Virus record (IMG/VR): IMGVR_UViG_3300035125_000070
Location: 1-42,565 of that record
DNA length: 42,565 nucleotides
Strand: one strand, 5' to 3'
From: a virus
Under the pieces are notes generated by a model. The model worked only from the letters and a program-made list of their open reading frames with translations, did no database searches and was not told where the DNA came from. Numbering within the stretch: position 1 is the stretch's first letter; the number at the start of each line of letters is the position of its first letter. Made by a program: the position numbers and the translations under genes. This document shows, one piece after another, positions 22,545 to 42,139 of the stretch.

Positions 22545-24481
22545 CAGAGGTACCTCCTTATCGCCTCACTCTTCGACTTCACAACCCCAAGAGCGGTCGG
22601 TGTGAACACAGATGCGAACTCCCGAAGCACCTTGGATTCCTCTCCTCTCCTCCGGGACGCATCATGGAATGCTGGGGTATCATGGATGATCTTCAAGGCC
22701 AGGGACGTAGCCATGACTCTGTCGTCTCGGTGACCTGGGGATGCCGTCAACTTCCCATTCGCCTCTGTGAAGTAGAGCATCTCTCCCAAGAGTTCGAGAC
22801 TGTGGAGCAGACAGTCCGTGTTCTTGAAGTCGAGTTTCAATCGACCGCACACGTCCTTCTTCTGGGGTTGCCGAGTCTCCCACCCAAACTCCCTGTGGAC
22901 TTGCTGACCACTGACCTTCTGCCTGTAGTAGAACCTCTTGTATCCTGTCTTCTCCAACTCCGCCTTGAGAGTTCCACCACAGGTGTTGTTCATCTCCGGT
23001 ATGATCAAGGCGTTGTTGTAGTACTGAGCGATCCAAACAGCGTACATGGCCGTCATCTCTTCATCGAAGACACCACCCCACTCCATGACTTGATCGCGTC
23101 GATGAGCGTCAAACACTTCGATGATGCTGTTGTCGCTCACATACTCCGATGTCCTCTTCCCCTCCGCTACATCAATCGTCAGGACATACGGATTGTTCTT
23201 CCTTGGTTCCTTGAACCTGAGCGCACATCCATCCTGAAGCCGGCCTTCCGACGTCCTGATGCACATTACTTTCCCCTGGTTCACGGAGAACGTCACAGTC
23301 TGTGGGACCACACACCTGTCTTCCAACTCCCTAAGACTAGCCACCAATCCATCTGGATGCTGGCTCATTAGCCCAACCAACCCATGGTACTTCTTCCTGA
23401 CAAAGTCGAGATCGTTCTCTTTCCAATCGATGAAGAACTTCAGATCAAGGATCCGACGCTTCACACGTTGGGAATCGAAGTAGAACGACCCAGTCACCAG
23501 GAAAGGTTCCTGTGGATTGAGGGGGAAATCCTGCTTGAACCTCTCGGTGCTCCCACCAAGAAGATCGATCTGATTGCGGCGGAACTTGATGTGCTCTGGC
23601 GTCAGGTCGTAGGCGTTGGCGATCTCCTTCTCTTCCTGTGTGTACTCGAGTTTCTCATTCAGCAAGAGAGGCTCTCTACAGTCAGGAAGATCCTTCCAGT
23701 TGATGAAGACGAAATCCCACCTTGATCCACGCTCCTGTGCCTTGTCACAGTCCTGAGCAAACTTGTTCATGCCATAGGCTGTAGACTCCTTGGCGATGAA
23801 TGCGAATCCTTTCCTTGGGATAGAGTTGAGGAGGGAAGTCTCTGCAGAGTCCGGGTCCCGCCACTTAGAGTTCTCGCTCATATGGCAAACCTGGATCGTC
23901 CCGGATGTACCTGGATTGGAATTCTCTCCCGAGTCCATCTCAAGCATAGATCCGTTGGACAGACGGAGCCCGGATTTCCCTTTCGGCATGGTGACTTTCT
24001 TTGGCTTGCCTGAGCACTGATCGTACTTGTAGAACCGCTCTACCATCCGAAAGATGTTGCTGGTGTGACTAGATAGATCCGCAATCAAGAAGACGTTTGT
24101 GTTCCCCCGAAACCTCATCATCCAATAGTCGAACGCCGCGAACAGAGTTGAGATACCTGCCTTCCTGTGCTTGAGTACGAGGACCTGGACTCGCTCCCAC
24201 AGCCTTCCCTTCAGCCTGGCCGCTACAGCGTCCGCAATCTGAAGTTGAACGGGATTGAGTCGAAACGGTATAATGGGAACTTCTTCGGCATCGCCTTCGA
24301 TCTTGCCTTCCTCGATGAACCCGTACTCTTCCATCCAGTAGATCGGATGAATCTTGCAGATCTCAGTCTCCGTCTTCGGGACATCCCACTCCTCCTTCGC
24401 CGCCTTGGATGCCAGCATCTTTGCGACCTTCTGGTCCAAGTCAGCCAAGTTCGGATAGAGGTCTCGGGGGAACTTCTGCAT
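22544..24481 (-). CDS. Terminase large subunit
   Basis: 645 residues from the ATG at 24481, which overlaps the stop of a 44-residue gene as TAATG; the open frame extends back to 24859 but that part is Arg/Ser-rich shadow sequence. ATPase: deviant Walker A LKHRKAGIST (~105-115) and Walker B-like IQVCHMSEN (~180-188). Nuclease: Asp in YVLTIDVAEG (~428), acidic IIPEMNN (~491-497), and RDDRVMATSLAL near 595-606. It packages DNA through the portal. All core motifs are visible. Confidence 0.85.
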   Translation of the reverse strand: MQKFPRDLYPNLADLDQKVAKMLASKAAKEEWDVPKTETEICKIHPIYWMEEYGFIEEGKIEGDAEEVPIIPFRLNPVQLQIADAVAARLKGRLWERVQVLVLKHRKAGISTLFAAFDYWMMRFRGNTNVFLIADLSSHTSNIFRMVERFYKYDQCSGKPKKVTMPKGKSGLRLSNGSMLEMDSGENSNPGTSGTIQVCHMSENSKWRDPDSAETSLLNSIPRKGFAFIAKESTAYGMNKFAQDCDKAQERGSRWDFVFINWKDLPDCREPLLLNEKLEYTQEEKEIANAYDLTPEHIKFRRNQIDLLGGSTERFKQDFPLNPQEPFLVTGSFYFDSQRVKRRILDLKFFIDWKENDLDFVRKKYHGLVGLMSQHPDGLVASLRELEDRCVVPQTVTFSVNQGKVMCIRTSEGRLQDGCALRFKEPRKNNPYVLTIDVAEGKRTSEYVSDNSIIEVFDAHRRDQVMEWGGVFDEEMTAMYAVWIAQYYNNALIIPEMNNTCGGTLKAELEKTGYKRFYYRQKVSGQQVHREFGWETRQPQKKDVCGRLKLDFKNTDCLLHSLELLGEMLYFTEANGKLTASPGHRDDRVMATSLALKIIHDTPAFHDASRRRGEESKVLREFASVFTPTALGVVKSKSEAIRRYL

Positions 24482-24615
24482 TACAGATACTTCTTCTTGT
24501 TCTTCGGAGGAGGAGGAATCGACTTGCGAGTTTCGGGCGCCTGGGTCTTCGTCCCACCCGCATGCTGTCTCATCCTCTTGTCCTTGTAGCTGGTCTTCTT
24601 CACGTCTCCTCTCAT
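24481..24615 (-). CDS. 44-residue basic protein before terminase
   Basis: Short gene with AAGGAGACGCAG before its ATG, overlapping the upstream stop (ATGA) and the terminase start (TAATG). The product is Lys/Arg-rich (RGDVKKTSYKDKRMRQHAGG) and ends with four prolines and a basic tail (KNKKKYL). Perfect start/stop coupling on both sides makes it convincing despite its size. Possibly DNA-binding; no family. Confidence 0.6.
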   Translation of the reverse strand: MRGDVKKTSYKDKRMRQHAGGTKTQAPETRKSIPPPPKNKKKYL

Positions 24616-24989
24616 CTGCGTCTCCTTCCTCGAGTTGCCTTCGAGATCTCCGTCCTTGGAGGCGGAGGTGGCGGTGGTGGCGCCGGCGGCTTCGGTTTGG
24701 GTTTGGGCTTTGGCTTCGGAGAAGCCAGCGGAGGCGACGCCACATTGACAGAGAAACTACTATCCGCGGGTGCAGGCTCAGAGTCGATAATCGCTTTGGC
24801 CACCGGATACTGCTCATCGGTGACAAACAGCTTGGGCTTCTCCACTGGCTTCGACTCAATCACTACTGCCTCAACCTTCTTCTTCTTCTTCTTCCTCGTG
24901 TACGTCCGCCTCTTCCGCGTCGTTGGCTTTTTGGTCGCCGGCTTCCTCGTACTTGTCTTTCGTGTCGTTGCCTTCTTCGCTCTTGGCAT
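24612..24989 (-). CDS. Histone H1-like basic protein with KP and poly-Pro tail
   Basis: 125 residues from the ATG at 24989. Residues 1-45 are Lys/Arg/Thr repeats (KKATTRKTSTRKPATKKPTT) ending in six consecutive Lys, as in bacterial histone H1-like tails. A short ordered piece (VEAVVIESKPVEKPKLFVTD) follows, then a KPKPKPKPK run and eight prolines (~100-115). It is likely a DNA-associated or packaged protein. A longer reading from 25082 overlaps the neighbouring small gene and lacks an SD site. Confidence 0.6.
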   Translation of the reverse strand: MPRAKKATTRKTSTRKPATKKPTTRKRRTYTRKKKKKKVEAVVIESKPVEKPKLFVTDEQYPVAKAIIDSEPAPADSSFSVNVASPPLASPKPKPKPKPKPPAPPPPPPPPRTEISKATRGRRRR

Positions 24990-24990
24990 C

Positions 24991-25128
24991 TTATCGCCCT
25001 TTCTTCTGTGTGCTTGGCTTCCATCCAGTCTTGCGCATGGTGCCATACACATATTTGCCTGTTCGTTTCTTTCCGTATCCACGCTTCTTCGCCGTTGCCT
25101 TCAGTTTCCTCTCCATAGCTTTTGGCAC
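24991..25128 (-). CDS. 45-residue basic protein
   Basis: The GTG at 25128 lies six bases after AGGAGG; an internal ATG at 25116 is less well placed. The product is MPKAMERKLKATAKKRGYG..., continuing with KYVYGTMRKTGWKPS. Lys/Arg/Gly-rich mini-proteins of this form occur in many phages near head genes, from memory. The gene ends two bases before the H1-like start. Role unknown, perhaps nucleic-acid binding. Confidence 0.55.
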   Translation of the reverse strand: MPKAMERKLKATAKKRGYGKKRTGKYVYGTMRKTGWKPSTQKKGR

Positions 25129-25138
25129 CTGAATCCTC

Positions 25139-25507
25139 CTACTTGATGTACATACCTCGTTGAGATGGACAGGGACGAGGCTTTGTCATCCTATCGTAAA
25201 CCAGCAGGAAGATAGACCCCCAACGTATGCAGGGATAGGCTTCCAGGTCTCTCCATGCTGAGCTGTTGTCAACGTCTGTAAAGAGAATGTGAGCTGTCTC
25301 CCAGAACACATCCTTGTCCCGCAACACCCAGAAACTGTAGACGGGATCATCTACCGTCGGCTTAATCCACAAGAAGTTGATGTCACACTTCCCCTCGTGT
25401 CCCTGAATCAACTCCTCTACATGCAAGGTGTCTCCAGCCACAGGGAAGGAATCCACAGACCCGATCGAGCAGGCAGCCAACTGTTGAGCCAAATAGAATC
25501 CGTCCAC
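25139..25507 (-). CDS. Hypothetical protein, 122 residues
   Basis: The GTG at 25507 follows AGGAGG by five bases. Residues 40-105 alternate strands and helices (CDINFLWIKPTVDDPVYSFW, DVFWETAHILFTDVD, WGSIFLLVYDRM), suggesting a small alpha/beta fold with two Cys and many Trp/Tyr. A GNAT-like or other small fold is conceivable but not supported by motifs. It is the last gene of the island-to-packaging junction. Confidence 0.5.
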   Translation of the reverse strand: MDGFYLAQQLAACSIGSVDSFPVAGDTLHVEELIQGHEGKCDINFLWIKPTVDDPVYSFWVLRDKDVFWETAHILFTDVDNSSAWRDLEAYPCIRWGSIFLLVYDRMTKPRPCPSQRGMYIK

Positions 25508-25516
25508 AACAACCTC

Positions 25517-26356
25517 CTACGACGACGACCCACGGAACGAGTTGCTGTACTTCTCATCAGGTCCACGAATCCGTTGGGTCCTAGCAACATTGACAGCATC
25601 ATCCAACTCAGACCCAAACCACTCATACTTTTCCACAGAGTCATGTTTCTTTGTCCAATTCGGACAGGACCTCTCAAGTCTTGCTGGGTTCGCCTTGCTC
25701 CTGAGCATGTTCGTCCCATACCAACCGATGTGTTGAATCCTAGACGCTTCTGGGTGAGCACGAACGGCTTTCTCTAAGACCCTGAAGTCATCGAACACGA
25801 AATCCCAACTCCAAGTCTTCTTCTCGTAGCATCCATTCTCAAGCCAGTAGGAGTAGAACCGATTCCACCTGTCTCTCCAAGTACCCCATCCAAACGTAGT
25901 GAACTTCGGATCAAATGTGATTCGCTCTTCAGGGTATCCACGAGGGTCTTCGCATCCACTATCCACAGTACACACCCGATGATCTTCCGAGAATTCATGA
26001 ATCATGTACCGCATCAAGTCCATGAAATCCTCACTAACAAGCATGTCATCTTCCAAGTGAACCACAGCGTCTAACTTGAAGATCGTAAACGCGTTTTGAA
26101 TCGACTCCACCACGTTGATAGGACATCCCACTCTTTTGCTTTGTACGTTGATCAGACCAGCGGATTGAGAACGTTCGACAAACTTCACGTAGAAATCAAA
26201 CAGCACCTGGTACGACTGTCGCACGTCGTGCATCGGGCCGTCAAGGCTTATGTACAACGGGACCTCCTCAAGCCCAGAACAATCAAGGAGATAATCAGTC
26301 GTTTTCCGAACCATTTCGGCTCTTCGGTAAGCCGTATAGACAATCCCAATCCTCAC
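25517..26356 (-). CDS. Glycosyltransferase, GT-A fold
   Basis: 279 residues if begun at the GTG at 26356, which has GGAG six bases upstream and lies just after the preceding stop; a GTG at 26368 would add four residues. The N-terminus RIGIVYTAYRRAEMVRKTTD is a typical GT-A first strand/helix. LDAVVHLEDDMLVSEDFM (~93-110) carries the DxD-type acidic cluster, and FGWGTWRDRW (~155-165) is seen in N-acetylglucosaminyltransferase-like and phage sugar transferases. It should transfer a nucleotide sugar; acceptor unknown. Confidence 0.75.
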   Translation of the reverse strand: MRIGIVYTAYRRAEMVRKTTDYLLDCSGLEEVPLYISLDGPMHDVRQSYQVLFDFYVKFVERSQSAGLINVQSKRVGCPINVVESIQNAFTIFKLDAVVHLEDDMLVSEDFMDLMRYMIHEFSEDHRVCTVDSGCEDPRGYPEERITFDPKFTTFGWGTWRDRWNRFYSYWLENGCYEKKTWSWDFVFDDFRVLEKAVRAHPEASRIQHIGWYGTNMLRSKANPARLERSCPNWTKKHDSVEKYEWFGSELDDAVNVARTQRIRGPDEKYSNSFRGSSS

Positions 26357-26358
26357 GA

Positions 26359-26973
26359 CTATCTCCACTGATTCTGCGTTGTGAATAGTACATTCGGACC
26401 AAGACTGAACTCCCGGTACACTTGATACCCCCGAGACTTCATCAGGTCCATGATCTCAGCCCTTCGTTCTGACACTTCCACGCAGAACATCTTGGTTCCA
26501 AGGATCTGGTATGGATTCCCAGGCATCCCCTTCAAGACACTCAGGTCCACGCCTTCCACATCGATCGAGATGAAGTCATAGGGACCAGGAAGGATATCGA
26601 GAATGTCAATCACGCGTACAGAGGCCACGTGGATCTGCTGGTAGGGGACCTGGGACTCCCACACCTTCTTGTGTGTAGTAGACGCAGTCGCCGTCGCACC
26701 ACCATGATCGAAGAACAGCCGGCATCCAACACTGCTTCCAATGAAGGCGTTGACGAGTTTCACCTTCTTGGAATCCTTGTACGTCTTCTGGAGCTGAACG
26801 AAGCATTGAGGACTCGCTTCCACACAGACGCCTGACCATCCCTGTTCAGCCAGCGCGTACGTGTTGCTCATCTCCTTCCCGTTGTAGGCGCCAATATCTA
26901 GAAACGTCCCAATGTAATCCTCGAAATAGCTGAGAACCTCCACGTCTTCACCCTGCTGAGAATACTTGCGCAT
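26359..26973 (-). CDS. FkbM-family methyltransferase
   Basis: 204 residues from the ATG at 26973, which overlaps the upstream stop (TGATG) and has GGAG seven bases before it. SAM-binding motif I is GTFLDIGAYNGKEMSNTYAL (~20-40), followed by SGVCVEASPQ (~46-55) and the later YDFISIDVEGVDLSVLKGM (~135-153), the FkbM signature. FkbM enzymes O-methylate sugars or small acceptors. Within the island it probably methylates a glycan residue. Confidence 0.8.
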   Translation of the reverse strand: MRKYSQQGEDVEVLSYFEDYIGTFLDIGAYNGKEMSNTYALAEQGWSGVCVEASPQCFVQLQKTYKDSKKVKLVNAFIGSSVGCRLFFDHGGATATASTTHKKVWESQVPYQQIHVASVRVIDILDILPGPYDFISIDVEGVDLSVLKGMPGNPYQILGTKMFCVEVSERRAEIMDLMKSRGYQVYREFSLGPNVLFTTQNQWR

Positions 26974-27605
26974 CAGTAGACTCCATACTCGCGCATGATC
27001 CACTTTTTCTTCTCCCTCTCCATGCGCTTGTTCCACATGCAATAGTGTCGAATCTTAGTCCGAGCCATACACTGGGACTCCCCATTCGCGTATCGAGTGA
27101 TCTGATCGAGTCCCATGTACGGGATGTAGGAAAGGTCTTCCTCCCACTTGTAGAGTTTCATGTGCGGAAGCGAGGGGTAGACTTGACCAGGCAGCGGATC
27201 ATGACCATCTCTAGTAGGCATCGGCTTCTCATACTTGAACATCATGGCCTTCTTCGGGCTGTGCCAGAACCCGTCGATCTCATCCGCGATGTTCTCCCCG
27301 ACCAGCATCTCGTCCTGGTCCAGGGCCAGGACCATGTCCGGTCGAATGGAATCCAGCATCCTAAGATTTCTCTCGTGATATGTGTCCCTCCTCCAAGGGC
27401 ATTGGGTTCGTCTCACCTTTATGATTTTTCGACTCTTCTTACAGTGGGATAGGATGAATGGAAGTTTCGATAACCGAACGGTCTTCATGTCAATCCGAAC
27501 ACAGACCTCTGAGCACAAGGATTCCATCGCCTTCAGGCACAACCTCCACTTCGGGAAGTCTCCAATCAACATGATGCCGGCGATCCTCAATGTTTTGGTC
27601 CCCAT
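26973..27605 (-). CDS. Glycosyltransferase-like protein, paralogue A
   Basis: Up to 210 residues. The ATG at 27605 has no SD site; a TTG at 27590 would overlap the upstream stop as TTGA and give the start MRIAGIMLIGD, closer to its paralogue at 28905-29540, so it may be the true start. RPDMVLALDQDEML (~90-103) is the acidic metal-binding region, and QVYPSLPHMKLYKW (~142-155) is shared with the paralogue. The N-terminus is GT-A-like. Sugar specificity unknown. Confidence 0.6.
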   Translation of the reverse strand: MGTKTLRIAGIMLIGDFPKWRLCLKAMESLCSEVCVRIDMKTVRLSKLPFILSHCKKSRKIIKVRRTQCPWRRDTYHERNLRMLDSIRPDMVLALDQDEMLVGENIADEIDGFWHSPKKAMMFKYEKPMPTRDGHDPLPGQVYPSLPHMKLYKWEEDLSYIPYMGLDQITRYANGESQCMARTKIRHYCMWNKRMEREKKKWIMREYGVY

Positions 27606-28159
27606 TCTGAAGCCAAGTCAATCTTCCTTCCTACAAACGACGATAGGTCATGTTGCTGCTTCTGTATATCACAACCGTAACAGAACCAAAACGGATGGAC
27701 GTGAGTCGTGATCTGAGTCATCTTGTGAGCAGCCGCGTGCAAGGCCTTCGTCACAGTCTTGAACCTACCATTCCGTATGTGAGACATCGCCATGGACATC
27801 GGATTTCGAATGCAGCAGATCCACTTCACATCTTCGAACACCTTCTTGTAGCACGGCAACATGAGAGAGATCCGAGGATCCTTCATCCCATAGGGAACTC
27901 TCTTCTCAGACTCCCTCATCGCCCGATACATCTCCAACTTTCCCATCAACCAAGAACTATCAACGGGATCACTATTCGTCGTCTTCCAGTTGTTCCCCTT
28001 CCGGCGAAGAGCCTCTTCGTTGATATCCAACAGAGGATAATCCTCCCAATGGTTACAGCCTGTCTCTCTCACCCACATCGGGATGCCGGCGTCGTGTAAC
28101 GCCTTAGAGATGAACCTCGTACCACACCCACCTAATCCAACGATGATGACAGTTCTCAC
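27587..28159 (-). CDS. Sulfotransferase-like protein
   Basis: 190 residues. The GTG at 28159 overlaps the upstream stop as GTGA with GGAG six bases upstream; a TTG at 28171 is weaker. VIIVGLGGCGTRFISKAL near 4-21 is a 5'-phosphosulfate loop-like P-loop. KDPRISLMLPCYKKVF (~92-107) followed by VKWICCIRNPMSMAMS (~110-125) matches the 3'-phosphate-binding Arg and Ser of PAPS-dependent sulfotransferases. It would sulfate a sugar of the island's product. A nucleotide kinase-like P-loop protein is the alternative. Confidence 0.7.
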   Translation of the reverse strand: MRTVIIVGLGGCGTRFISKALHDAGIPMWVRETGCNHWEDYPLLDINEEALRRKGNNWKTTNSDPVDSSWLMGKLEMYRAMRESEKRVPYGMKDPRISLMLPCYKKVFEDVKWICCIRNPMSMAMSHIRNGRFKTVTKALHAAAHKMTQITTHVHPFWFCYGCDIQKQQHDLSSFVGRKIDLASEWGPKH

Positions 28160-28908
28160 GTCTTGCTCCAATGAAAGTCATTCGGATCACAATCGAAGGG
28201 CGCCCATCTCGTCCACTTCGGAAGAGAGAACTTCTCTAAGAACTTCCCACCAGTGTAATGCTGCACGACAACATCCGGATCCAGCTTCTCTGCCTCGAAC
28301 ATCTTCTTGGGTGCCTTGGATACCATCAAGTCGTTCAGATTCTTGACAGCGCAGGCCAGGCAAGGCATCTCCCTTCCTCGACCGAACTTCTCCCAGTATG
28401 AACGCCACAACTGAAAGAACGTTCGAACAATGCCGTTCTTCCGAAAGCAGATGAACGCTCCGTTGTACACAGTCAAGGGAAGTTGAACACCAAACATCTT
28501 CATTGCCCGAGCGTAGATATTCAGAACCCTATCACCCATCCTCCACTCTATGAACTTGTTCAAGACAACGTCGGGAACAACCTCCACAGCTCCCTGAGAT
28601 AGTCTTGGCTCATCCAACGCATCGAACGCAGCTCCAATACCAGGTCTTTGGATGATCGAATCACAATCCAAGTACAACGTCTCATCGAACGGGGTGATGT
28701 TCACCATGCGAGTCTTGTAGTCCCGATTCTCCTCTGTCTTCGCGTTGACCCTACAGACCTTCGTATTGTCTGGTACACTCAAATCCCCATGAAGATTCGT
28801 CACCACATAGAATGGATAGTTCGTGTTTTTCCTAGAGATCCGCATGCACGCCGCTGCGATCTTCCAGTACTCCTCCCCAAACACTACGTACAGGATTCCA
28901 CGCTTCAT
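28156..28908 (-). CDS. Glycosyltransferase family 8-like protein
   Basis: 250 residues. FDETLYLDCDSIIQRP (~75-90) has the DxD metal site in the GT8 context. VYNGAFICFRKN (~147-158) fits the NxG(A/V) motif after it, and DVVVQHYTGG (~219-228) fits the C-terminal HxxG(x)xKPW-like region. It has no obvious membrane segment, so it is cytoplasmic. The ATG overlaps the upstream stop as ATGA; the SD is weak, consistent with coupling. Confidence 0.72.
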   Translation of the reverse strand: MKRGILYVVFGEEYWKIAAACMRISRKNTNYPFYVVTNLHGDLSVPDNTKVCRVNAKTEENRDYKTRMVNITPFDETLYLDCDSIIQRPGIGAAFDALDEPRLSQGAVEVVPDVVLNKFIEWRMGDRVLNIYARAMKMFGVQLPLTVYNGAFICFRKNGIVRTFFQLWRSYWEKFGRGREMPCLACAVKNLNDLMVSKAPKKMFEAEKLDPDVVVQHYTGGKFLEKFSLPKWTRWAPFDCDPNDFHWSKT

Positions 28909-29540
28909 GGTATTCCGAGGACAGCCTGAATGTCATAGCGTTTCCGAATCCAGTCCTCTTTCTCCTTCTGAAGTTTCTTCGTGTACATACACCAATGATT
29001 GATCTTCGTCCGAGAGACATACTGAAAACTCTTCTTGACGTATTGGACGATTCGAGCCCGTCCCTGATACGGAAGATACGTCAGACCAGGCTGCCACTTG
29101 AATGCCCGCATGTGGAGAAGAGATGGGTACACGTAGGGAAGCTGACGGCCATCATCCGTCACCATCTTGAACTCGAACATGATGGCTCGTTTCGTCGGCA
29201 TCTTCCAGAACCTACGAAGCTCCTTCCTGAATGGAGTCTCAAACGTCTCATCGTGGCACTGAGTCAAGACGATATCAGGCTCAAGATCATCCACCATCCG
29301 AAGCAAACTCTCGTGCCACTTCCCTACCTTCCATGACGTCTCTGCAATCCTCAGCTTGATCAACTTCCCGCGGAAGAATCTATCCCCATGGTGTTTCAGA
29401 AACTTGTAGACATCCCTATCCCCGTGCTCCATGTCGAACTCCACACAGATCCCGTCACAGAAGTAGGGCAGCTTCTTGAGAGTCTTCTCCCAGAATGGGA
29501 ACCGCGTCATAGCAACCGTCGAGATGACCTTGAGTCTCAT
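28905..29540 (-). CDS. Glycosyltransferase-like protein, paralogue B
   Basis: 211 residues, clearly related to the product of 26973-27605: both have HE..LRM near 75, PD(M/I)VL followed by an acidic cluster (TQCHDETF here), VYPSL.HM..(Y/F)KW, Y(I/L)PY.G, and a closing TKI.H.CM segment with a basic helix. Here the usual LDQDE acidic motif is replaced by TQCHDE, so activity or metal use may differ. ATGA overlap with the upstream gene. Confidence 0.6.
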   Translation of the reverse strand: MRLKVISTVAMTRFPFWEKTLKKLPYFCDGICVEFDMEHGDRDVYKFLKHHGDRFFRGKLIKLRIAETSWKVGKWHESLLRMVDDLEPDIVLTQCHDETFETPFRKELRRFWKMPTKRAIMFEFKMVTDDGRQLPYVYPSLLHMRAFKWQPGLTYLPYQGRARIVQYVKKSFQYVSRTKINHWCMYTKKLQKEKEDWIRKRYDIQAVLGIP

Positions 29541-30679
29541 ATGGCAGCCAGAGCCTCCTGAAAGAGCTCGAAGTCAGGACGGTCGAACGGGATCTCCACT
29601 TCACCCCACTCGATTGCCTCGTCCTTTTTCACATCAACAAGGAGCTTCACTCCCCTAGCCAAGCAGATTGGGAGACCAAAGTTTGTAGTGGTGTTCCCGA
29701 TCATTCCATAACAGTCGTATCCTCCCAACCCATCTAACTCATGCCCGGCTGGAAGATCTTTCTTCGCGTAAGCATAGACGTTCGTTACGAACCCATGTCG
29801 CGGGCGAAGAAGAGACTTCCCCTCAGCGGCGTCCACAATGCATTGCATAGACTCGACATGACAGAGATGGTAAGGACGGTAGAACAAGTAGTTCGGACCA
29901 TCTCCCATCTTGTAGTACTTCATCAAGCGACGCTGATACGGATCCCCACACCGACCAATCACGAACACCCCACCACCAGGTTCAGCATCAAGGATGTAGT
30001 CCACATACGGATACGAAAGATCACGATCGAACAACTCGAGTGCATCACGGACCGATGATGTCCGATATCCCTGCATACCTCCAGGAGGAACCTTCAAGTC
30101 GTAAGCGTTCGCCACCAGAGACATCTCGATGTTCATCTTGGTCCCATCCGTCATGGCCGTAGCTTGCTCGTAGTCCAGATCCCTCTTGTCCGCTTCTGGT
30201 TTGATCTTCTCTGGGTTGGAGTACTTGTCAAGGAAGCCCTTCATGTTCCCAGTCATGACCAACGAGAAACCCCAGTACCGAACCTCATCAATCAACTTCG
30301 CCAGGACAGCCGGCTGGTCCCCATCACAGCTTGTATACGTCACCCCGTTCTTCGCGGCGATCTTCATCAAGGCAGGACCAAAGATCAGGTCTGCTTCCGC
30401 GTTCATCATGATGAGATGTCGACCTCTATGAAGAGCTTCCACATCAAAGGTGGCAGCCTCAAGAATTGAGGAAGTAGCATCGATCACTACATCCGCGTGA
30501 GCGTCAAGGAGATACTCCATCTTCTCATATGAAGGAACTCGATAGTTCTTAGATACCGCCTCGCACTTCTCCTTGTCCTTGTCAATGATACCCACACACC
30601 GCAGGCCAGGAGTGATAGCAATCTGATGAACAAGACCACGACCCATACAGCCTACACCAATCACGACGACGTTGATCAT
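29537..30679 (-). CDS. NAD(P)-dependent oxidoreductase with SAF-like C-terminus
   Basis: 380 residues from the ATG at 30679 (TGATG overlap). A Rossmann fold opens the protein with VVVIGVGCMGRGLVHQIA (~4-21), followed by an acidic IIDKDKEK end of strand two (~32-39). CDGDQPAVLAKLIDEV (~115-130) and the C-terminal DLPAGHELDGLGGYDCYGM (~325-345) fit homoserine dehydrogenase-like enzymes with SAF domain found in sugar and amino-sugar clusters. It probably makes or modifies a sugar precursor; the substrate is not evident. Confidence 0.65.
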   Translation of the reverse strand: MINVVVIGVGCMGRGLVHQIAITPGLRCVGIIDKDKEKCEAVSKNYRVPSYEKMEYLLDAHADVVIDATSSILEAATFDVEALHRGRHLIMMNAEADLIFGPALMKIAAKNGVTYTSCDGDQPAVLAKLIDEVRYWGFSLVMTGNMKGFLDKYSNPEKIKPEADKRDLDYEQATAMTDGTKMNIEMSLVANAYDLKVPPGGMQGYRTSSVRDALELFDRDLSYPYVDYILDAEPGGGVFVIGRCGDPYQRRLMKYYKMGDGPNYLFYRPYHLCHVESMQCIVDAAEGKSLLRPRHGFVTNVYAYAKKDLPAGHELDGLGGYDCYGMIGNTTTNFGLPICLARGVKLLVDVKKDEAIEWGEVEIPFDRPDFELFQEALAAI

Positions 30680-31344
30680 CACATCCCCCTCAGTTCAATG
30701 ATGGAATCCTCAACCTTCGAATCGTTGCTGTAGCAGACTTCAACATTCGGCGACCTTAAGGAAATCCCGTACTTATGAAGAAGATAGCTCAAGCAACTTT
30801 GATCATGTCGGTGGGATTGAAATCCAGGAGCAGAACTCTTCCCTGATCCTCCCTGAAACGAAATCCCATCCCGGCTCAATTCAAACATCTCTCTCAGAAT
30901 GTTCATTGCCGTCTGATTGTACTGATTGAATCCGATGACGCCGCCCAGGCACTGAGGAAACGTTTTCGCTTCTTCGATCGAACACCCCAACTGATTCAGA
31001 CAATCCTCTGAAGTGAAGTGATGTTCCCAACACGCATTACAGAACGCAATGACACCCTCATCCCATATCACTCGAAAGAATCGATCCAAAGGCTTCCGTA
31101 TAACACAGCTCGCATCCAACCACAGAGCACAGTCGTATCCCCGTTCGAAGGCAGTCTGTATAGCGTAGTACTTGAAGGCGTAGGGAACCTCCTGGTGTGT
31201 GGGACTGCCCGGGGGATACCTTCCAGCCCAGAGGATGCAGTCCTTCTTGTAGACTTCCTCCAGGGAGAGCTTCAACCTGGCCTGGCCCTCCATGTACCTC
31301 TCCCGGCCAGGACAGGCGAAGTTCACGACGCAAGTCTTCCTCAT
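30679..31344 (-). CDS. Glycosyltransferase-like protein
   Basis: 221 residues from the ATG at 31344, which overlaps the upstream stop as ATGA and has a GGAGGGG site; a longer frame to 31377 is not needed. TAFERGYDCALWLDASCVIR (~60-80) has a WLDAS motif where GT-A enzymes have DxD. Such phage and bacterial proteins carry a similar plan, with GGVIGFNQYNQTAM (~130-145) following. Acceptor unknown; the single Asp at the metal site is atypical. Confidence 0.55.
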   Translation of the reverse strand: MRKTCVVNFACPGRERYMEGQARLKLSLEEVYKKDCILWAGRYPPGSPTHQEVPYAFKYYAIQTAFERGYDCALWLDASCVIRKPLDRFFRVIWDEGVIAFCNACWEHHFTSEDCLNQLGCSIEEAKTFPQCLGGVIGFNQYNQTAMNILREMFELSRDGISFQGGSGKSSAPGFQSHRHDQSCLSYLLHKYGISLRSPNVEVCYSNDSKVEDSIIELRGM

Positions 31345-32042
31345 TCTATCCCCTCCGCCAACTCGCAGTGCCGGCACAATATGTCTCTCGACTCGTCATC
31401 CAATCCGTCTCTCACGATGTTCCACTCAGTCTTGAATAGGGACTCATAGCTATCTGTTTCAAGGTTCCCAAGGACATGCTTCATTCCATAGTCCATGCAA
31501 CACAGGACAACATCTCCATTCGGCATGAGGACGTTGTGGTCGAGATTCCTCCAGGAGGAAGCACAACCAATCCTGCCCTTCCTCTTGGGACTATCAAACA
31601 GATTCCCTCCACGACTCAACACAGCTCCCGGCTTGTGTGGATTCCATGTCGTCGCTGAAGGAATCGTCCTCTGACACATCTGGACTATCTCCCATGAAGC
31701 CCCCTCAACACGATGGATGCAAAAGTATTTGAAGGGGATATGCGAGATCCGATCGATGTCCTCGAATGTCATGCCGATGGTAGTAGTGTGGACAGTCAAC
31801 TTGAACCCCAACCTGTGAACACAGAGGATCATGTCTGTACATCGAGGATGTGACCACGGCTCTGACATTCCAGCAAAGACGATCCCGACATCAATAGGTA
31901 TCTTACCCATGAACAGATGGAACTTGCTGAGTTTCATCGTCTTTGGCTCAAGGTCCTTGTATCTCGAAACGAGAACATCCTGTGGGCAGTAATCACACCT
32001 CACAGGACAGCCAACCTTTGTTGTGATCTCGAGAATTCTCAT
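31341..32042 (-). CDS. Radical SAM/SPASM-type enzyme
   Basis: 233 residues from the ATG at 32042 (ATGA overlap; upstream codons in frame lie in the neighbouring gene). GCPVRCDYCPQ (~12-22) is the CxxxCxxC [4Fe-4S] cluster motif that binds S-adenosylmethionine. The C-terminal quarter has CASSWRNLDHNVLMPNGDVV, LCCMDYG and a final CRHC, a shortened SPASM-like auxiliary cluster. SPASM enzymes modify peptides, sulfatases or sugars by radical chemistry. Shorter than most (~350+). Substrate here unknown. Confidence 0.78.
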   Translation of the reverse strand: MRILEITTKVGCPVRCDYCPQDVLVSRYKDLEPKTMKLSKFHLFMGKIPIDVGIVFAGMSEPWSHPRCTDMILCVHRLGFKLTVHTTTIGMTFEDIDRISHIPFKYFCIHRVEGASWEIVQMCQRTIPSATTWNPHKPGAVLSRGGNLFDSPKRKGRIGCASSWRNLDHNVLMPNGDVVLCCMDYGMKHVLGNLETDSYESLFKTEWNIVRDGLDDESRDILCRHCELAEGIE

Positions 32043-32854
32043 TCCGGTTTTCCGAGATACTGCTTCAGATGTTTCGGGATCTCCACCCACTCCTGCCGAG
32101 TGAAGTGTCGGACCTCCGGCCAGATTTGCCAGAGTGTGAACATATGGCAATCCTTCACCCCCGGCTTCAAGGTTGGAAGAACATCCCGAACCCACTTGTC
32201 AAAGTCGTACAGCTTATCACCGTAGTGGCTCGACTGGATGTGCTTTCGAACCGTATCCTCCATAGAACGCCTAGTGGATGTGAAGTGGAAGATCCCAGGT
32301 AGGTTCATGTCCGCGGCCGTTATCTCTGGTGTCCTACCGGCTAGGAACTTCTCAGAGGTCTTGATGTACACCTCCAACCCATCCCCAATGCTCCCCACAG
32401 GATAGCCGGGGAACCCTATGATGGGCACAGACTTCATGCAGACAGCCTTCGGGTTCCCTTTGTCCAAGAACATGTCCAGCCTCTGTAAAGCACTACGTCT
32501 CCAGATCTCATCAGCGTCCAGGATGAGAGCGTGTTCCACGCCGGCCCGCTTCATCACGTCCATGGAGTAGTTCCGGATCTCAGTCTCTGCCTCCAAGTAG
32601 TGTCCCTTCTTCTTCTGTGGAGTTTCAACCCGCTCGAAGTGAACATGCATCTTCATCCGCTTCAATCTGTTCACCACAGTGTTGATTCCAGCCAAATCCT
32701 CCGAAGATACCTCAGTTCCATTCCAGTATGTCGTAGGAACGAAGAAGAAGAAATCCTTCATCTTCTGAAGGACCAAGGACTGGCAGGCATCCATCAAACA
32801 GAATTCATCCCGAACAGCTAAGCAACACGCCGCGTATCGTCTCTTGTATCCCAT
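32039..32854 (-). CDS. Glycosyltransferase-like protein with DADE motif
   Basis: 271 residues. The N-terminus KRRYAACCLAVRDEFCLMDA resembles GT92/GT2-like phage transferases that begin with a strand, then a charged residue. EHALILDADEIWRRSA (~107-122) is the DxD-type site. The rest is mixed alpha/beta with His/Trp-rich C-terminal sequence (KLYDFDKWVRDVLPTL). AGGTGACTC precedes the ATG. Cytoplasmic; donor sugar unknown. Confidence 0.68.
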   Translation of the reverse strand: MGYKRRYAACCLAVRDEFCLMDACQSLVLQKMKDFFFFVPTTYWNGTEVSSEDLAGINTVVNRLKRMKMHVHFERVETPQKKKGHYLEAETEIRNYSMDVMKRAGVEHALILDADEIWRRSALQRLDMFLDKGNPKAVCMKSVPIIGFPGYPVGSIGDGLEVYIKTSEKFLAGRTPEITAADMNLPGIFHFTSTRRSMEDTVRKHIQSSHYGDKLYDFDKWVRDVLPTLKPGVKDCHMFTLWQIWPEVRHFTRQEWVEIPKHLKQYLGKPE

Positions 32855-32857
32855 GAG

Positions 32858-33508
32858 TCACCTGCATCTGTAGTAGTACATGATGTTGTCACCAAGTAGG
32901 ATCTCCTTCTTCAAGAGACCCGACTGATAGATTGCATTACTCCACTCAGCATCCTCACCAACATCCTTGTCTGGAAATCTGAACTTCTTGGCTATCCCCG
33001 ACCGGATCGGATTGAGATGATTCGGTGGTCGATAGTAAATACCTCCTCGTTCGAACCAATGATCCAACGTGATTGAATGAATGAATCGACTGACCTGGCC
33101 CTTCGACGTCATCTCCCCAACGATTCCAACACAGTCCAAGTCAGGGACTCTCGTTACCAAACTAACGATTTCTTTCAAATAGAAACCAGACACCCAATCA
33201 TCGTCGTCCACAAAAGCAACGTAGTCTCCCCTCGACGCTTCGAGTAGTGCATTTCTCTTCTCTCCAACAAACCTCCTACCATCATCCACAAAGATCACAA
33301 ACTCAACAGACTTGTCCACACCAGATGTCAATGCTTGATCAGCCAGGAACTTGAGCAGACCTTCTGCCTTTCTTCTTCTGTTGTCCAGTGATGCCACCAG
33401 AACACTGAAGACCTTCGACCCCAAAGTGATCTTTCTCCCGTCTACGGTAAACTGCTTCCCCGTGCTGATAAGCCTTTGGGGAGTTCTCCCGTCGGTATGT
33501 GTCGTCAT
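32858..33508 (-). CDS. Glycosyltransferase family 2
   Basis: Up to 216 residues. VGEKRNALLEASRGDYVAFV (~80-99) followed by DDDDW is the classical GT2 sequence before and at the metal-binding site, and VGEDAEWSNAIYQSG (~183-197) supplies the later catalytic ED. The first ~28 residues overlap the preceding gene; a TTG at 33424 would begin just before the first GT-A strand (KVFSVLVASLDNRRRK) and shorten the overlap from 170 to 86 bases. Either start leaves real overlap. Confidence 0.75.
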   Translation of the reverse strand: MTTHTDGRTPQRLISTGKQFTVDGRKITLGSKVFSVLVASLDNRRRKAEGLLKFLADQALTSGVDKSVEFVIFVDDGRRFVGEKRNALLEASRGDYVAFVDDDDWVSGFYLKEIVSLVTRVPDLDCVGIVGEMTSKGQVSRFIHSITLDHWFERGGIYYRPPNHLNPIRSGIAKKFRFPDKDVGEDAEWSNAIYQSGLLKKEILLGDNIMYYYRCR

Positions 33509-34340
33509 GAGGAAGCCCCCCGATGGAGTAGTGGTTGTGTTTGAAGACCAAATCCCACGCCGGAATGTTCACTCCCATGAGTCGCGCACGTTGTGTGAAG
33601 TCGTTGTCACCCCACACGCTGATATACTCGGGGTAGTACAGATACCCCGCTGATTCGTAGTACCCCCGAGAGAGAATCAGAATCGTCTGGATCGAATTGT
33701 CATAGGAGGGCTGAATCCCATCGTTCACTTCTAGGACCCACTGCCCATCCTTGTTCGACTTCCTCACACGCTTCTGAATCTCGAGATCCCAATGCAATGG
33801 ACACTCGAAGTCATCCGACACGTACAGCAAGACATCTCCTGTCGAGATCTCGGCGCCATTGTTCATCGCATCCACGACAGATCGGTTCTGATTAACCAGG
33901 ACCCGGATGGGGAAGTACCCAGCGATCTCTGCTACGACCTGCATGTAGTTCCTCGCATCGTCACTATCCAGGGACAGGATGTACTCCAACTCATTCAGGC
34001 CAGAGAACTTGTTGCACCATAGCTCCACGCACGCAGCGCAAAAGCTAGGCCGGCCTCGTGTAGGATGGACGATGCTGAACTTCTGTCGAACATGTCCTTT
34101 CGGCTTCACCAACCGAGGAGGCCAGGGCCATGCATCGTACCTGGGAGAGATTCTTGGAATCATGGTGGGAGGAGGCGGCGCACCGTGACGCTCGTGTCGT
34201 GCCCTACGAGTTACTCCAGATGGTGTCCGCCTCCTGTCCTTCATACGTTTGACCTCCGGGGTCCTCTCAACGAAGCTCAGGTACTCGGCTTTGTTCTTGA
34301 AGACGAGCTTCTTCCCCGTGCTCCGGTCAATATACCTCAC
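33339..34340 (-). CDS. Glycosyltransferase-like protein with N-terminal extension
   Basis: 333 residues from the GTG at 34340, which has GGAG eight bases upstream; a TTG at 34361 would add seven. Residues 1-40 (RYIDRSTGKKLVFKNKAEYL) form a small basic domain, 40-75 are Arg/Pro-rich linker, and the GT-A domain begins at FSIVHPTRGRPSFC. LDSDDARNY and VLLYVSDDFECPLHWD are the acidic motifs, and VWGDNDFTQRARLMG is the acceptor-side motif. Its last ~26 codons lie inside the following GT2 gene. Confidence 0.65.
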   Translation of the reverse strand: MRYIDRSTGKKLVFKNKAEYLSFVERTPEVKRMKDRRRTPSGVTRRARHERHGAPPPPTMIPRISPRYDAWPWPPRLVKPKGHVRQKFSIVHPTRGRPSFCAACVELWCNKFSGLNELEYILSLDSDDARNYMQVVAEIAGYFPIRVLVNQNRSVVDAMNNGAEISTGDVLLYVSDDFECPLHWDLEIQKRVRKSNKDGQWVLEVNDGIQPSYDNSIQTILILSRGYYESAGYLYYPEYISVWGDNDFTQRARLMGVNIPAWDLVFKHNHYSIGGLPHDDTYRRENSPKAYQHGEAVYRRREKDHFGVEGLQCSGGITGQQKKKGRRSAQVPG

Positions 34341-34364
34341 ACCAAAAACTCCAATCCCCAATCT

Positions 34365-35477
34365 TCATAACAGTTCCTTCGCCTTCTCTACGATCTCCTC
34401 TGGAGTGATCGAACCCAGCACCCTGCACCATTCGATCAGGGACTTCGGGGGAGACCCATCCGCGTCTTTGCATTGTTCGAACGGCAACACGAAGTTGTGA
34501 TCCCGGCAGGGGGCTGTTGGGCAGCACTCCGGGTGGAAGATCGGGTGGTTGTTGGTGTAGTACTTCGCGCGGTCATCAGGATGGAACACACCCCACAGGG
34601 AGATGATCGGCACGTTCGGGAAGCACGCGGCCAGGTGCATGATCGCCGAGTCAGGGCAGATCACTAGAGACGCCCGCTCCACGATCGGGATCAGCTCGCG
34701 GAAGTTCTTGGTCTTCTCGAGCATGTTGACCACGAGAGACGACATCCCATCGAAGATCCAGTCGTACTTCCCGTCAGGATCCACACCCACTACGAGGATC
34801 AGCTTGCCGGTCTCCTTGGCTAGGAGATTGAGCATCTTCTGTGCGAGCTTCGGTGGGTAGCATCGGTTCTCGTTCTTCGGACTCATGTGATAGACGATGT
34901 AGTCCGACGTCTTGAGATTCATCTCCTTGAAGACACGGTAGTCTTCCGGACGAGGGAAGATGCATGGTTTCTTCGCGGAAGGTGGAGCGTCGAAGATCCC
35001 TATCGTTGTGAAGAAGTAGTCGTAGCAGCAGGGCTGGTCTGGTTCGGAGTTGTTTTCGAGCATTCCCTCGTAGAAGATGTGGTAGTCGTACCCATGCAAG
35101 ATGGTGTCGAACAGCATTGGGACAGGCACGGCGGCTCCCCCAACATAAGGGTTAGCGTACCATAGTGGCAGAACCCCTTGCCGGCAATACAGATGAATCG
35201 TAGCATCTGGATACCTCCTCACAAGTTCTGCCGGAACAGAGCTGGCGATGAGCTGGTCACCCCACGCGTCGTGCCGGTAGACAACGACCTTCTTTCCGTT
35301 CAGGTCCTGACCAAAGTACTTCCGTTCGTACGAGTTGAATGAACTCCACCGCCACTGTGTGGTCGGTGTCTTAGAGATGAGCATCTGGCCTTCCCAATCC
35401 GTCACGACATATCGCGTGTAGGGCTTGAAGTAGGCGTAGTCAGTTATCACCACCTTGTTCGGCGTCACTATCTGCAT
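34365..35477 (-). CDS. Glycosyltransferase family 9 (heptosyltransferase-like)
   Basis: 370 residues. GKKVVVYRHDAWGDQLIASS (~61-80) is the GT9 N-terminal motif (R-x-D-x-x-G-D). VICPDSAIMHLAACFPNVPI (~270-290) followed by ISLWG is the second signature, where the LPS enzymes read D-(S/T)-x-x-x-H-(L/I)-A-A. A Cys-rich insert (HPECCPTAPC) follows. GT9 enzymes transfer heptose or related sugars onto lipid A cores, which hints at a Gram-negative host surface or a mimic of it. A GGGGGT site precedes the ATG; it overlaps the HTH gene by 38 bases. Confidence 0.82.
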   Translation of the reverse strand: MQIVTPNKVVITDYAYFKPYTRYVVTDWEGQMLISKTPTTQWRWSSFNSYERKYFGQDLNGKKVVVYRHDAWGDQLIASSVPAELVRRYPDATIHLYCRQGVLPLWYANPYVGGAAVPVPMLFDTILHGYDYHIFYEGMLENNSEPDQPCCYDYFFTTIGIFDAPPSAKKPCIFPRPEDYRVFKEMNLKTSDYIVYHMSPKNENRCYPPKLAQKMLNLLAKETGKLILVVGVDPDGKYDWIFDGMSSLVVNMLEKTKNFRELIPIVERASLVICPDSAIMHLAACFPNVPIISLWGVFHPDDRAKYYTNNHPIFHPECCPTAPCRDHNFVLPFEQCKDADGSPPKSLIEWCRVLGSITPEEIVEKAKELL

Positions 35478-36381
35478 CCATTACCCCCGTTCCGAATCGT
35501 TCCTCATACTTCGCTCGCCTCGCAGCGATTTCGCTCTTCATCATCTCGGTCTCTCGCTGTTCGGCATTCGCATCCAAGATCAGCTTCCTGCGTCGATGAG
35601 CAATCAAGTCTGCAGTCTTCGGATCCACCTCACCTGCCAAGAGACCATCAAGAACAACTCGGTCGGCCGCGTAGATGACTTCAGGACCGAGCTGCTTCTT
35701 TGCTTTTTGGACGTCTTTTCTTGTGACGTTTTGAATAATATCGGAAGAATCTACATGAAGAATCTCTGCAGTTTGGGCAGGAGTCCGGCCAACCGCCATA
35801 AGCATCGCAGCCTGCTGATAGATGCTTTCCGCGGACGTGAAAATCAATCGTGTGCACTCGTTCGTCCCCAGCTTCCCCGCTTCGATCACGGCTACTGCCT
35901 GCTTCGCGTGTTCCTTCACATCCTTGGCCAGGGGGACGGCTGACTTCATCCGCTTCTTTCGATACCGCTCTCTTCCTTTTTCGGCATGTACGGATCTCCG
36001 TAAGTTGTGCAAGGCCACCAGGCCACGAGGGTCCACTTTCCTCAGCTTCTGGTAGATCTTCTTCCTCACGGTTATACTGACTTGGTCCAACCACATGACT
36101 TTCTTCCGAGTCAGGAATTTGTCGGCGCTCTCGATCTTGTCCAAGTATCTCCGAAAGCTCGCTTGTCCCAATTTTGTGTAGAGACTTCCCCAGGGGTTTC
36201 TCCAGGAAACTTCTCCGCACCAGGATGAAGCCTTTCCCTTTCGTCCCCGCTTTCCGGTAGTCGGTACGGATCTTGAATGCGTTCTCACCGAAGAGCCAGT
36301 CGACTTTTTTGAGGAACGCGTAGAGCTGGGCGTGCCGGACTTGTTGGTTTTTCCCCGGTGGGATGACTTCGACGCCTTCAT
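35440..36381 (-). CDS. HTH protein, possible small terminase; joins the frame upstream by +1 shift
   Basis: This frame holds the credible C-terminal ~230 residues. From about 36180 downward: ADKFLTRKKVMWLDQVSITV, then a long basic helix, AMLMAVGRTPAQTAEILHVD (helix-turn-helix, ~35850-35760), LLAGEVDPKTADLIAHRRRK and an acidic tail. HTH plus helical oligomer region is the plan of small terminases, but it may be another regulator. The part above 36230 in this frame is Ser/Arg-rich and looks like shadow of the overlapping frame, so no good independent start is visible. Confidence 0.6.
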   Translation of the reverse strand: MKASKSSHRGKTNKSGTPSSTRSSKKSTGSSVRTHSRSVPTTGKRGRKGKASSWCGEVSWRNPWGSLYTKLGQASFRRYLDKIESADKFLTRKKVMWLDQVSITVRKKIYQKLRKVDPRGLVALHNLRRSVHAEKGRERYRKKRMKSAVPLAKDVKEHAKQAVAVIEAGKLGTNECTRLIFTSAESIYQQAAMLMAVGRTPAQTAEILHVDSSDIIQNVTRKDVQKAKKQLGPEVIYAADRVVLDGLLAGEVDPKTADLIAHRRRKLILDANAEQRETEMMKSEIAARRAKYEERFGTGVMDADSDAEQGGDN

Positions 36382-37203: not shown

Positions 37204-37275
37204 AGTGAGGGGAGCCGCCCCAAGGACACCCCGCCGGGTGCCGGCCCCGAAGGACCGGAAGGCGGCCCCCTCACT
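37204..37275 (-). ncRNA. Highly structured intergenic RNA element
   Basis: 37204-37219 and 37261-37275 pair over 15 GC-rich positions with one bulged base. The enclosed 41 bases hold two more hairpins: one at 37240-37257 (seven pairs capped by a four-base loop, CCGGTCC/GGGCCGG on the minus strand) and one at about 37228-37239. The three-way junction lies between the ATPase stop, which it includes, and the next SD site. It could be a processing site, factor-dependent terminator or regulatory RNA. Confidence 0.5.
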
Positions 37276-38248
37276 TTGGTTTCGTATCCGACCAGTATTT
37301 TGCGATGGTCGAACGAGATCTCTTCACAAACTTCGCCACATCCCGTTGGCTCCAATCAGGATGAATCCTTCTCGCATCCCGAATCATCTCCTCCGTCGAG
37401 GCCTTGATGATCCCGATCTGTTGATCCGCCAGGTGCCAGAACGGCATGTCCACGTCATGAGAGTGCTCAATGAAGAGATCCCGCAGATGCTTCTTCCCCT
37501 CCATCAGGCCGGTGGACCGCACGTTCTTCCCAAACCGCAGCTTGAAGATGAACCTCTGCTCGTCGCTCAGAGTCAGCTCGCAGCTCGTCCGGACCCAGTT
37601 CGCCAGGGCACTGGTCCCCGCGGCCAGGTACACGCTCTCCAGGACGGTCCACTTCTTCGTGTCCTTGGGCTTCGGGGTGTGCGCGACCAGGAGCAGCGCG
37701 AAGTCCAACCTCTTCATGACCTTCTCCACCTCCTCGCGCCAAGACAGGAAGGAGGTGCTGTCGTTGATGTTGACGCTGCCCACATACGACTGATACGGGT
37801 CCACGACGACCAGGTCGGGCTGCTTGCTCGCCCCGGCGATGATCTCATCCAACCACAACCCGAAGTCCGAGCCGCCAATACCGAACGCATGGATAATCCG
37901 GAGATGTTTTCCCAGGAGGGTTTGGTTCAGCTTGAGGGTCTTCGCGATCGACTTGAAATCCCTGGAGAGGACTTCATCATCGTTCTCAGCTTGCACGTAG
38001 AGCACCCGGGAGGGCTTCTTAACGGAGATCTTCTCCAGGATTGGGGAGCCTGCCGCGACGCAAGCCGCGATCTGCTCAGCCAGGACCGACTTGCCAATTC
38101 CGGTTCCTCCGGTCAGGAGGGTTGCGGCGCCCTTCTTGAGAAAGCCATTGCCGGCCAGGTGCTTTTTGGGATCGAGCTTGAACGCTTTGAGGTCTTTCCA
38201 TGTGTAGGTCGGGAAGTTCGGCAGGTCCTGCGTGGTCGTGGGGGTCAT
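37271..38248 (-). CDS. RecA-like AAA ATPase/replicative helicase (RepA/DnaB-like)
   Basis: 325 residues. GAATLLTGGTGIGKS (~40-54) is Walker A. PSRVLYVQAENDDEVLSRDF supplies the acidic residue after strand two, and DLVVVDPYQSYVG (~146-158) is Walker B; LLLVAHTPKP is the following sensor strand. The C-terminus DWSQRDVAKFVKRSRSTIAK (~298-318) is a helix-turn-helix, so the protein may bind origin DNA as well as hydrolyse ATP. It heads the minus-strand operon next to the candidate origin. A 14-residue leader overlaps its start as ATGA. Confidence 0.75.
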   Translation of the reverse strand: MTPTTTQDLPNFPTYTWKDLKAFKLDPKKHLAGNGFLKKGAATLLTGGTGIGKSVLAEQIAACVAAGSPILEKISVKKPSRVLYVQAENDDEVLSRDFKSIAKTLKLNQTLLGKHLRIIHAFGIGGSDFGLWLDEIIAGASKQPDLVVVDPYQSYVGSVNINDSTSFLSWREEVEKVMKRLDFALLLVAHTPKPKDTKKWTVLESVYLAAGTSALANWVRTSCELTLSDEQRFIFKLRFGKNVRSTGLMEGKKHLRDLFIEHSHDVDMPFWHLADQQIGIIKASTEEMIRDARRIHPDWSQRDVAKFVKRSRSTIAKYWSDTKPK

Positions 38249-42132: not shown

Positions 42133-42139
42133 TATGGCA

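Follow-up and report, generated by a model that had tools for sequence, protein, structure and literature searches.

We analysed a viral contig of 42,565 bases, the entire IMG/VR virus record IMGVR_UViG_3300035125_000070, which may be incomplete and is referred to below as the window. At positions 25517-35477, about one quarter of the contig, 13 minus-strand open reading frames (ORFs) form a cassette encoding about nine glycosyltransferases (GTs), an FkbM methyltransferase, a sulfotransferase-like protein, a DLO-type oxidoreductase, and a radical SAM (rSAM)/SPASM protein. The cassette is a real, conserved, and modular feature of an uncultured phage lineage, with contents that differ by phage, and it is phage-encoded glycosylation of a known type in a new form, with an unusual combination of enzymes. 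In the reading that we favor, to which we give close to an even chance, the cluster is a phage pathway that would make a short, modified oligosaccharide in the host cytoplasm and attach it to the phage's own virion proteins. The glycan would be methylated and possibly sulfated.

Layout and conservation of the cassette

The cassette lies between a replication ATPase and helix-turn-helix (HTH) gene on one side and the large terminase on the other. The tight coupling of 13 minus-strand genes, as described in an earlier note on this DNA, was confirmed by the ORF listing with translation and by the junction spacing, because all junctions within the cluster are overlaps or gaps of at most 9 nt. Overlaps of 4 nt of the ATGA type, also claimed there, were found at four junctions (28905, 29537, 30679, and the rSAM gene if its start is the ATG at 32042). 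Two larger overlaps, of 70 and 170 nt, probably stem from misassigned start codons; the rSAM gene probably starts at 32042, versus the listed ORF start at 32195, and the true start of the GT2 gene at 32858-33508 is probably inside the listed ORF, at about 33397-33424. The FkbM gene at 26359-27042 possibly starts at the ATG at 26973.

The bit-score cut-offs applied from Pfam and NCBIfam were 22 for Glyco_transf_9, 23.3 for GT2, 37.7 for TIGR01444, 27 for DRL_cat, 21.5 for SPASM, and 27 for the sulfotransferase. Related contigs (G and L numbers) were detected through exact peptide patterns, and their number is a lower bound. The genes of the cassette, in the direction of transcription, are as follows.

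34365..35477, minus strand: GT9-superfamily glycosyltransferase, the constant first gene of the cassette (Pfam Glyco_transf_9, 34.6 bits, 1.7e-8)
33339..34361, minus strand: GT2 glycosyltransferase (Pfam, 6.5e-8; orthologues of 43% identity in G001 and 39% in G005)
32858..33508, minus strand: GT2 glycosyltransferase (Pfam, 6e-7; phrog_14775 glycosyltransferase, 2e-26)
32039..32854, minus strand: GT-A-like protein with a DADE motif, by motif and context (45% orthologue at the same place in G001)
31341..32042, minus strand: radical SAM/SPASM protein (CX3CX2C motif GCPVRCDYC; SPASM, 30.4 bits, 4.7e-7, over the cut-off)
30679..31377, minus strand: GT-A-like protein, by motif and context (orthologues of 52% in G001 and 38% in L005/L052)
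29537..30682, minus strand: DXR-II-like oxidoreductase (DLO type) with an NAD-binding domain and a weak C-terminal SAF domain (DRL_cat, 139.6 bits, 1.2e-40)
28905..29540, minus strand: predicted GT-A-fold glycosyltransferase, paralogue of 26973-27605 (AlphaFold2 model, pLDDT 70)
28156..28908, minus strand: GT8-like glycosyltransferase with an LDCD motif, by motif and context (50% orthologue in G001)
27587..28171, minus strand: sulfotransferase-like protein (Sulfotransfer_3, 20.1 bits, 8e-4, below the cut-off)
26973..27605, minus strand: GT-A-fold paralogue of 28905-29540 (37% identity to that protein)
26359..27042, minus strand: FkbM-family methyltransferase (TIGR01444, 62.9 bits, 4e-17; orthologues of 47% in G001 and 37% in L055)
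25517..26368, minus strand: GT2/GT13-like glycosyltransferase with LEDDM and GWGTW motifs (GNT-I, 0.0012, 18.2 bits, below the cut-off)

The closest relative, G001 (IMGVR_UViG_3300034378_000082), is a 49.5-kb contig whose terminase and putative capsid protein are 57% and 69% identical to those of the window. It carries the same flanking genes and, in nearly the same order, orthologues of 10 of the 13 cluster genes (11 if both paralogues of one pair are counted) at 30-55% identity, which indicates that these ORFs are real genes. No sequence orthologue was found in G001 for the 25517 gene, the rSAM gene, and the sulfotransferase. Beyond these, G001 has a gene resembling UDP-sugar epimerases, two further methyltransferases, one of them a second FkbM, and a non-orthologous sulfotransferase; this second FkbM was rejected as an orthologue shared by both phages.

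The 50.6-kb contig G005, which has 91-bp end repeats, carries a short cassette of GT9, GT2, a GT34-family gene, and GT2; the window itself has no end repeat. In the 37.5-kb contig G006, GT9 is accompanied by a group-1 glycosyltransferase, another GT-B-type gene that looks similar but has no Pfam match, a gene without assignment, and what appear to be three methyltransferases, of which two match Pfam families. On the shorter contigs L005, L053, and L055, glycosyltransferases lie immediately upstream of the packaging block, accompanied in one case by FkbM. Glycosyltransferases were thus found upstream of the packaging genes in all seven contigs with enough sequence, and GT9 was the first cassette gene in each of the four contigs long enough to include it. 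Between these ends, the contents of the cassette vary among contigs through extra methyltransferases, the UDP-sugar epimerase, GT4 genes, and an unrelated sulfotransferase.

The main cassette orthologues in G001 are 43-55% identical, about the same as the terminase (51-57%) and the portal-like proteins (46-49%). This indicates that the cassette is an old trait of the lineage whose middle genes have been exchanged. The earlier note had allowed that host genes might have been joined to the phage by an assembly error, and the slightly lower G+C content over most of the cluster (about 0.50-0.51 vs 0.54) would fit host DNA acquired in this way or a recent capture without phage function. However, syntenic copies in independent contigs, one with the 91-bp end repeats, rule out misassembly or host contamination, and the core-like divergence of the orthologues argues against a recent capture, so that we regard this explanation as scarcely credible.

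A search for homologous clusters had been proposed in the earlier note, and the syntenic copies are such clusters. No homologues of the putative capsid protein or GT9 were found among 50,697 annotated phage records, and a single-protein scan with the terminase gave no relatives; distant terminases of about 26% identity occur mostly in Vibrio phages. The 84-kb phage contig L011 has a distant GT9 relative (29%) downstream of tail genes, which indicates that the coupling of such a GT9 to virion genes is not unique. At L011:9848-20182, GT9, GT2-like genes, and a methyltransferase-like gene directly follow apparent tail genes, as identified by eye. A literature search for phage together with FkbM and sulfotransferase gave no match, which is a weak sign of novelty, as most subscription journals were not covered.

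Enzymes of the cassette

GT9, GT2, FkbM, the oxidoreductase, and SPASM, as named in the earlier note, all score over their cut-offs, whereas its sulfotransferase remains below that of Pfam and its GT8-like enzyme is assigned by motif and context. The homologues are glycan enzymes, which excludes the possibility, also raised there, that these are unrelated enzymes.

Orthologues of the GT9 protein in three relatives are 50-55% identical, and the four Cys of its C-terminus are all invariant. A resemblance to a protein heptosyltransferase such as TibC, considered because of these four Cys, is unsupported; the sole credible match of solved structure is lipopolysaccharide (LPS) heptosyltransferase II, in the nucleotide-binding part. 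The protein has the GT9 domain of LPS heptosyltransferases, and models of these enzymes are its best matches. This is the strongest point in favor of a different reading, somewhat unlikely in our judgment, in which a host surface glycan (LPS core, O-antigen, or capsule precursor) is remodelled in infection, either as a block to superinfection or to keep progeny off debris. Bacterial surface-polysaccharide loci often contain FkbM and GT2 enzymes, and a pectate-lyase-like beta-helix protein of the phage suggests polysaccharide recognition; both are in line with this reading. However, GT9 scores far under the NCBIfam equivalog cut-offs for heptosyltransferase I, II, III, RfaQ, and RfaF (at best 35.9 of 467 bits in the window, and 43 of 134.6 bits for the GT9 of G006), and the position of the genes favors late expression, when surface remodelling would be of less use.

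The two GT2 proteins score 33.1 and 30.0 bits in Pfam, both over the cut-off, and orthologues of the second, 32858-33508, stand immediately upstream of the packaging block in G001, G005, L005, L053, and L055. A credible Pfam match is missing for five cluster proteins (26973, 28156, 28905, 30679, and 32039): the 32039-32854 protein has no family match, the 28156-28908 protein no Pfam GT match, and the paralogue pair 28905/26973 no Pfam or NCBIfam family match, while PDB and Pfam searches with the 30679-31377 protein gave nothing. PDB profile searches with three GT-like families yielded nothing usable. No orthologue of the 25517-26368 protein was found in the relatives. For the predicted structure of the 28905 protein, the best PDB fold matches are mostly GT-A glycosyltransferases, namely SunS (top), TarS, TarP, and chondroitin synthases, at E-values of 1e-4 to 1e-3.

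The rSAM protein has the CX3CX2C motif and a SPASM domain; its Radical_SAM domain, at 0.012, is below the cut-off, and a single-protein scan gave no viral relative. SPASM proteins often act in peptide maturation, and SunS is a bacteriocin S-glycosyltransferase. Another reading is that the cassette yields a small peptide or metabolite bearing sugars or other modifications; the rSAM/SPASM protein would then be its maturase, and the GT-A proteins would serve as peptide glycosyltransferases. The SunS match, however, holds at the GT-A level only; neither a precursor peptide nor a protease or exporter was seen, and the rSAM gene is missing from relatives that keep the rest of the cassette. We therefore consider this product very improbable.

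The 29537-30682 protein is homologous to Brucella DRL (3upy/3upl, E 8e-50) and shares with the DXR-II/DRL family the fold, the domain order of DRL catalytic and NAD-binding domains, Arg320, and Tyr322. True DXR-II enzymes have an invariant Thr229, together with Gly121 and mostly His250, and are set apart from two uncharacterised DLO clades (PMC3847144). The window enzyme differs from them at all three positions (Thr229 to Met, Gly121 to Ala, and His250 to Gln), which rules out its identity as the DXR-II isoprenoid enzyme. Position 229 is Met in the phage oxidoreductases; in the 14 cellular homologues that were aligned it is Leu or Ile, as in DLO1, which indicates that the enzyme is of the DLO type. 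The "SAF oxidoreductase" of the earlier note is thus an oxidoreductase with a weak C-terminal SAF domain, and more specifically a DXR-II-like protein that lacks the DXR-II signature residues. Matches to Listeria phage come from unannotated records.

The nearest cellular homologues (L013-L035) are up to about 52% identical and spread over many phyla. In 16 of 21 cellular loci, the neighborhood includes dTDP-rhamnose genes, a GT2 gene, or a GT-like gene that recurs among the loci, which ties the DLO family to glycan synthesis and suggests, from gene neighborhood, that DLO-type oxidoreductases may have a glycan role in bacteria. The same loci also lend weight to remodelling of the host surface.

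FkbM membership follows from the domain score given above. In the 27587-28171 protein, both motifs of a PAPS-dependent sulfotransferase were read by eye, GLGGCGTRFISKAL (5'-PSB P-loop-like) and RNPMSMAMS (3'-PB R..P....S), although the score is below the Pfam gathering threshold. The sulfotransferase in the same slot of G001 passes Pfam at 40 bits and is unrelated to the window protein; orthology of the two was rejected.

Possible acceptors of the glycan

Searches for further pathway components were performed in four contigs, with positive controls for PF00303, PF01943, and PF02397. Neither a flippase (PF01943) nor an initiating phosphoglycosyltransferase (PF02397) was found in any of them, and a Wzx/Wzy-type polysaccharide export locus was rejected on this basis. 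No membrane-like segment was predicted in any of the 13 cluster proteins (top 19-residue hydropathy 1.67). Because the enzymes are soluble and these two components are lacking, the glycan is expected to be assembled in the cytoplasm, on an acceptor that is itself cytoplasmic, namely a virion protein, the inner-leaflet LPS core, or DNA. The lack of a flippase, initiating transferase, membrane protein, and integrase also speaks against remodelling of the host surface. No integrase (PF00589) was over the cut-off in the four contigs, three of them possibly incomplete, and other lysogeny routes were not searched; on this basis lysogenic conversion was rejected, in agreement with the earlier note, which had argued against it from the timing.

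DNA as the acceptor would mean a glycan on modified bases of hypermodified phage DNA, as protection from restriction. Diverse glycans added to DNA by phage glycosyltransferases have been described (Pyle 2024, as cited in PMC12619734). However, a thymidylate-synthase-type hydroxymethylase gene (PF00303) was found in none of the four contigs, including one apparently complete, whereas 9 of 14 control genomes were positive, and we consider this acceptor improbable. A search for Tet_JBP gave no match in any of the control genomes.

A virion protein is favored as the acceptor because the glycosyltransferases are coupled to virion genes (terminase-portal-head) and because precedents exist (PMC12619734, PMC9614988). 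Neither the promoter scan (8 vs 13.0 in shuffles) nor the terminator scan (16 vs 13.8) showed enrichment, and a single long transcript from the cluster into the terminase genes is plausible. Together with the common strand and the tight spacing, this lack of enrichment suggests that the cluster may be expressed late, as the earlier note had proposed. The cassette genes run directly into the packaging/head operon, so that glycan and capsid would be produced together. Sugars from host nucleotide-sugar pools would be added stepwise by the soluble transferases, GT9 first and the GT2/GT-A enzymes next; a rare sugar would be supplied or altered by the DLO oxidoreductase, and by the epimerase in the relative; FkbM would add a methyl cap and the sulfotransferase a sulfate cap. 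The rSAM protein would perform a further modification or act on the acceptor. The swapping of the cassette middle between phages would fit a glycan on which receptors, host defences, or other binders impose diversifying selection.

Virion decoration is a reasonable interpretation of these genes; the late timing and the glycan structure that it involves are inferred, and the virion as acceptor most of all. Several points weigh against it. GT9 belongs to the superfamily of LPS heptosyltransferases. Assembly of the LPS core likewise takes place on the cytoplasmic face and needs no phage flippase, which makes host LPS equally compatible with this part of the evidence. No oligosaccharyltransferase or O-linking enzyme was identified, and the part given to the rSAM gene is a proposal.

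According to Freeman 2023, as cited in PMC12619734, mycobacteriophages carry glycans on capsid and tail-tube subunits. Phage-encoded glycosyltransferases and a virion protein target, here proposed, are common to both, whereas the window brings about nine GTs together in a single block with genes for methylation, a sulfation-like step, DLO, and rSAM; mycobacteriophages are another phage lineage, and the virion glycan of the window is a prediction. The capsid and fibril glycans of chlorovirus PBCV-1 and giant viruses (PMC9614988, PMC7826918) are likewise unusual and virus-encoded, as proposed here, and the giant-virus clusters, of glycosyltransferases, methyltransferases, and sulfate-metabolism genes (PMC9614988), are clade-specific and in some cases resemble the cassette in having both of the latter. 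These viruses differ in their eukaryotic hosts and far larger genomes from a phage of about 42-50 kb, and the comparison is of gene content, not sequence homology. Bacterial O-antigen and LPS core loci share GT9, GT2, FkbM, sulfotransferase, and DLO-type genes as well as constant ends and a variable middle, but the window lacks their flippase and initiating transferase and its cassette is embedded in phage replication and packaging genes.

Neighboring genes and biological meaning

The genes bordering the cassette are as follows.

37271..38248, minus strand: AAA_25 replication ATPase/helicase, the upstream border (Pfam, 9.6e-25; orthologues at the same border in G001, G005, and G006)
35440..36381, minus strand: HTH-like protein (orthologues of about 30% in G001 and G006; only phrog_29168, of unknown function)
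25139..25507, minus strand: small conserved protein, the last gene of the cassette, adjoining the packaging genes (orthologues in eight other contigs)
24612-25082, minus strand: basic ORF rich in Lys/Arg and Pro, immediately ahead of the terminase
22544..24481, minus strand: large terminase (phrog terminase, 1.4e-12; 51-57% identity in six relatives)

The earlier note had placed the cluster between an HTH or possible small terminase and the large terminase. The HTH-like and terminase flanks stand, but the small-terminase identity of 35440-36381 is unconfirmed, and two genes, 25139-25507 and 24612-25082, intervene before the terminase. The listed terminase start is too early, because the N-terminus of the long frame overlaps the 24612-25082 ORF out of frame; the start is probably near 24481. 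The 25139-type protein sits last in the cassette, before the terminase, in all nine contigs that include it. The top fold matches of its model (pLDDT 77) are nearly all methyltransferases at E 0.05 or worse, and a truncated methyltransferase-like fold is possible, as a lead only.

The putative major capsid protein is encoded at 17278-18450 and a 158-aa head protein at 18465-18941. The pectate-lyase-like protein (15143-16900, minus strand), just downstream of the putative capsid gene, is a candidate tailspike or head fibre, and another virion-region protein (10485-12329, minus strand) has an Ig/BACON-like domain. Where the minus-strand block and the rightward genes diverge, a sigma-70 promoter that matches the consensus perfectly (TTGACA-16-TATAAT with TG) lies at 38847-38874 on the plus strand, close to a strong stem-loop at 38713-38687 on the minus strand. 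Tandem plus-strand genes at 41500-42039 and 42125-42565, the second running past the contig end, have 21-nt (7-residue) repeats of the type I-x-G-D-V-S-G in a coiled-coil-like heptad array.

To our knowledge, phage virion glycosylation is known from few systems, each with one or few glycosyltransferases. A bolder form of the favored reading, which we hold to be doubtful, is that a family of small phages coats its capsids with a lineage-specific methylated, sulfated heteroglycan; its own cassette, with about a dozen enzymes, would make this glycan and be swapped between phages like an O-antigen locus, a virion antigenic variation that would involve a sugar from a new DLO-type oxidoreductase and rSAM modification. 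The cassette spans 3 to 10 kb, keeps a single position next to the terminase genes, and has ends that stay constant around a middle that is exchanged. If virion decoration is true, it would show O-antigen-like glycan diversification in small phages, in a lineage with no close cultured relative. It also links the DLO oxidoreductases, a family of unassigned function, to the synthesis of glycans in both phages and cells, and would provide a defined gene set for asking whether virion glycans affect adsorption, defence, or persistence.

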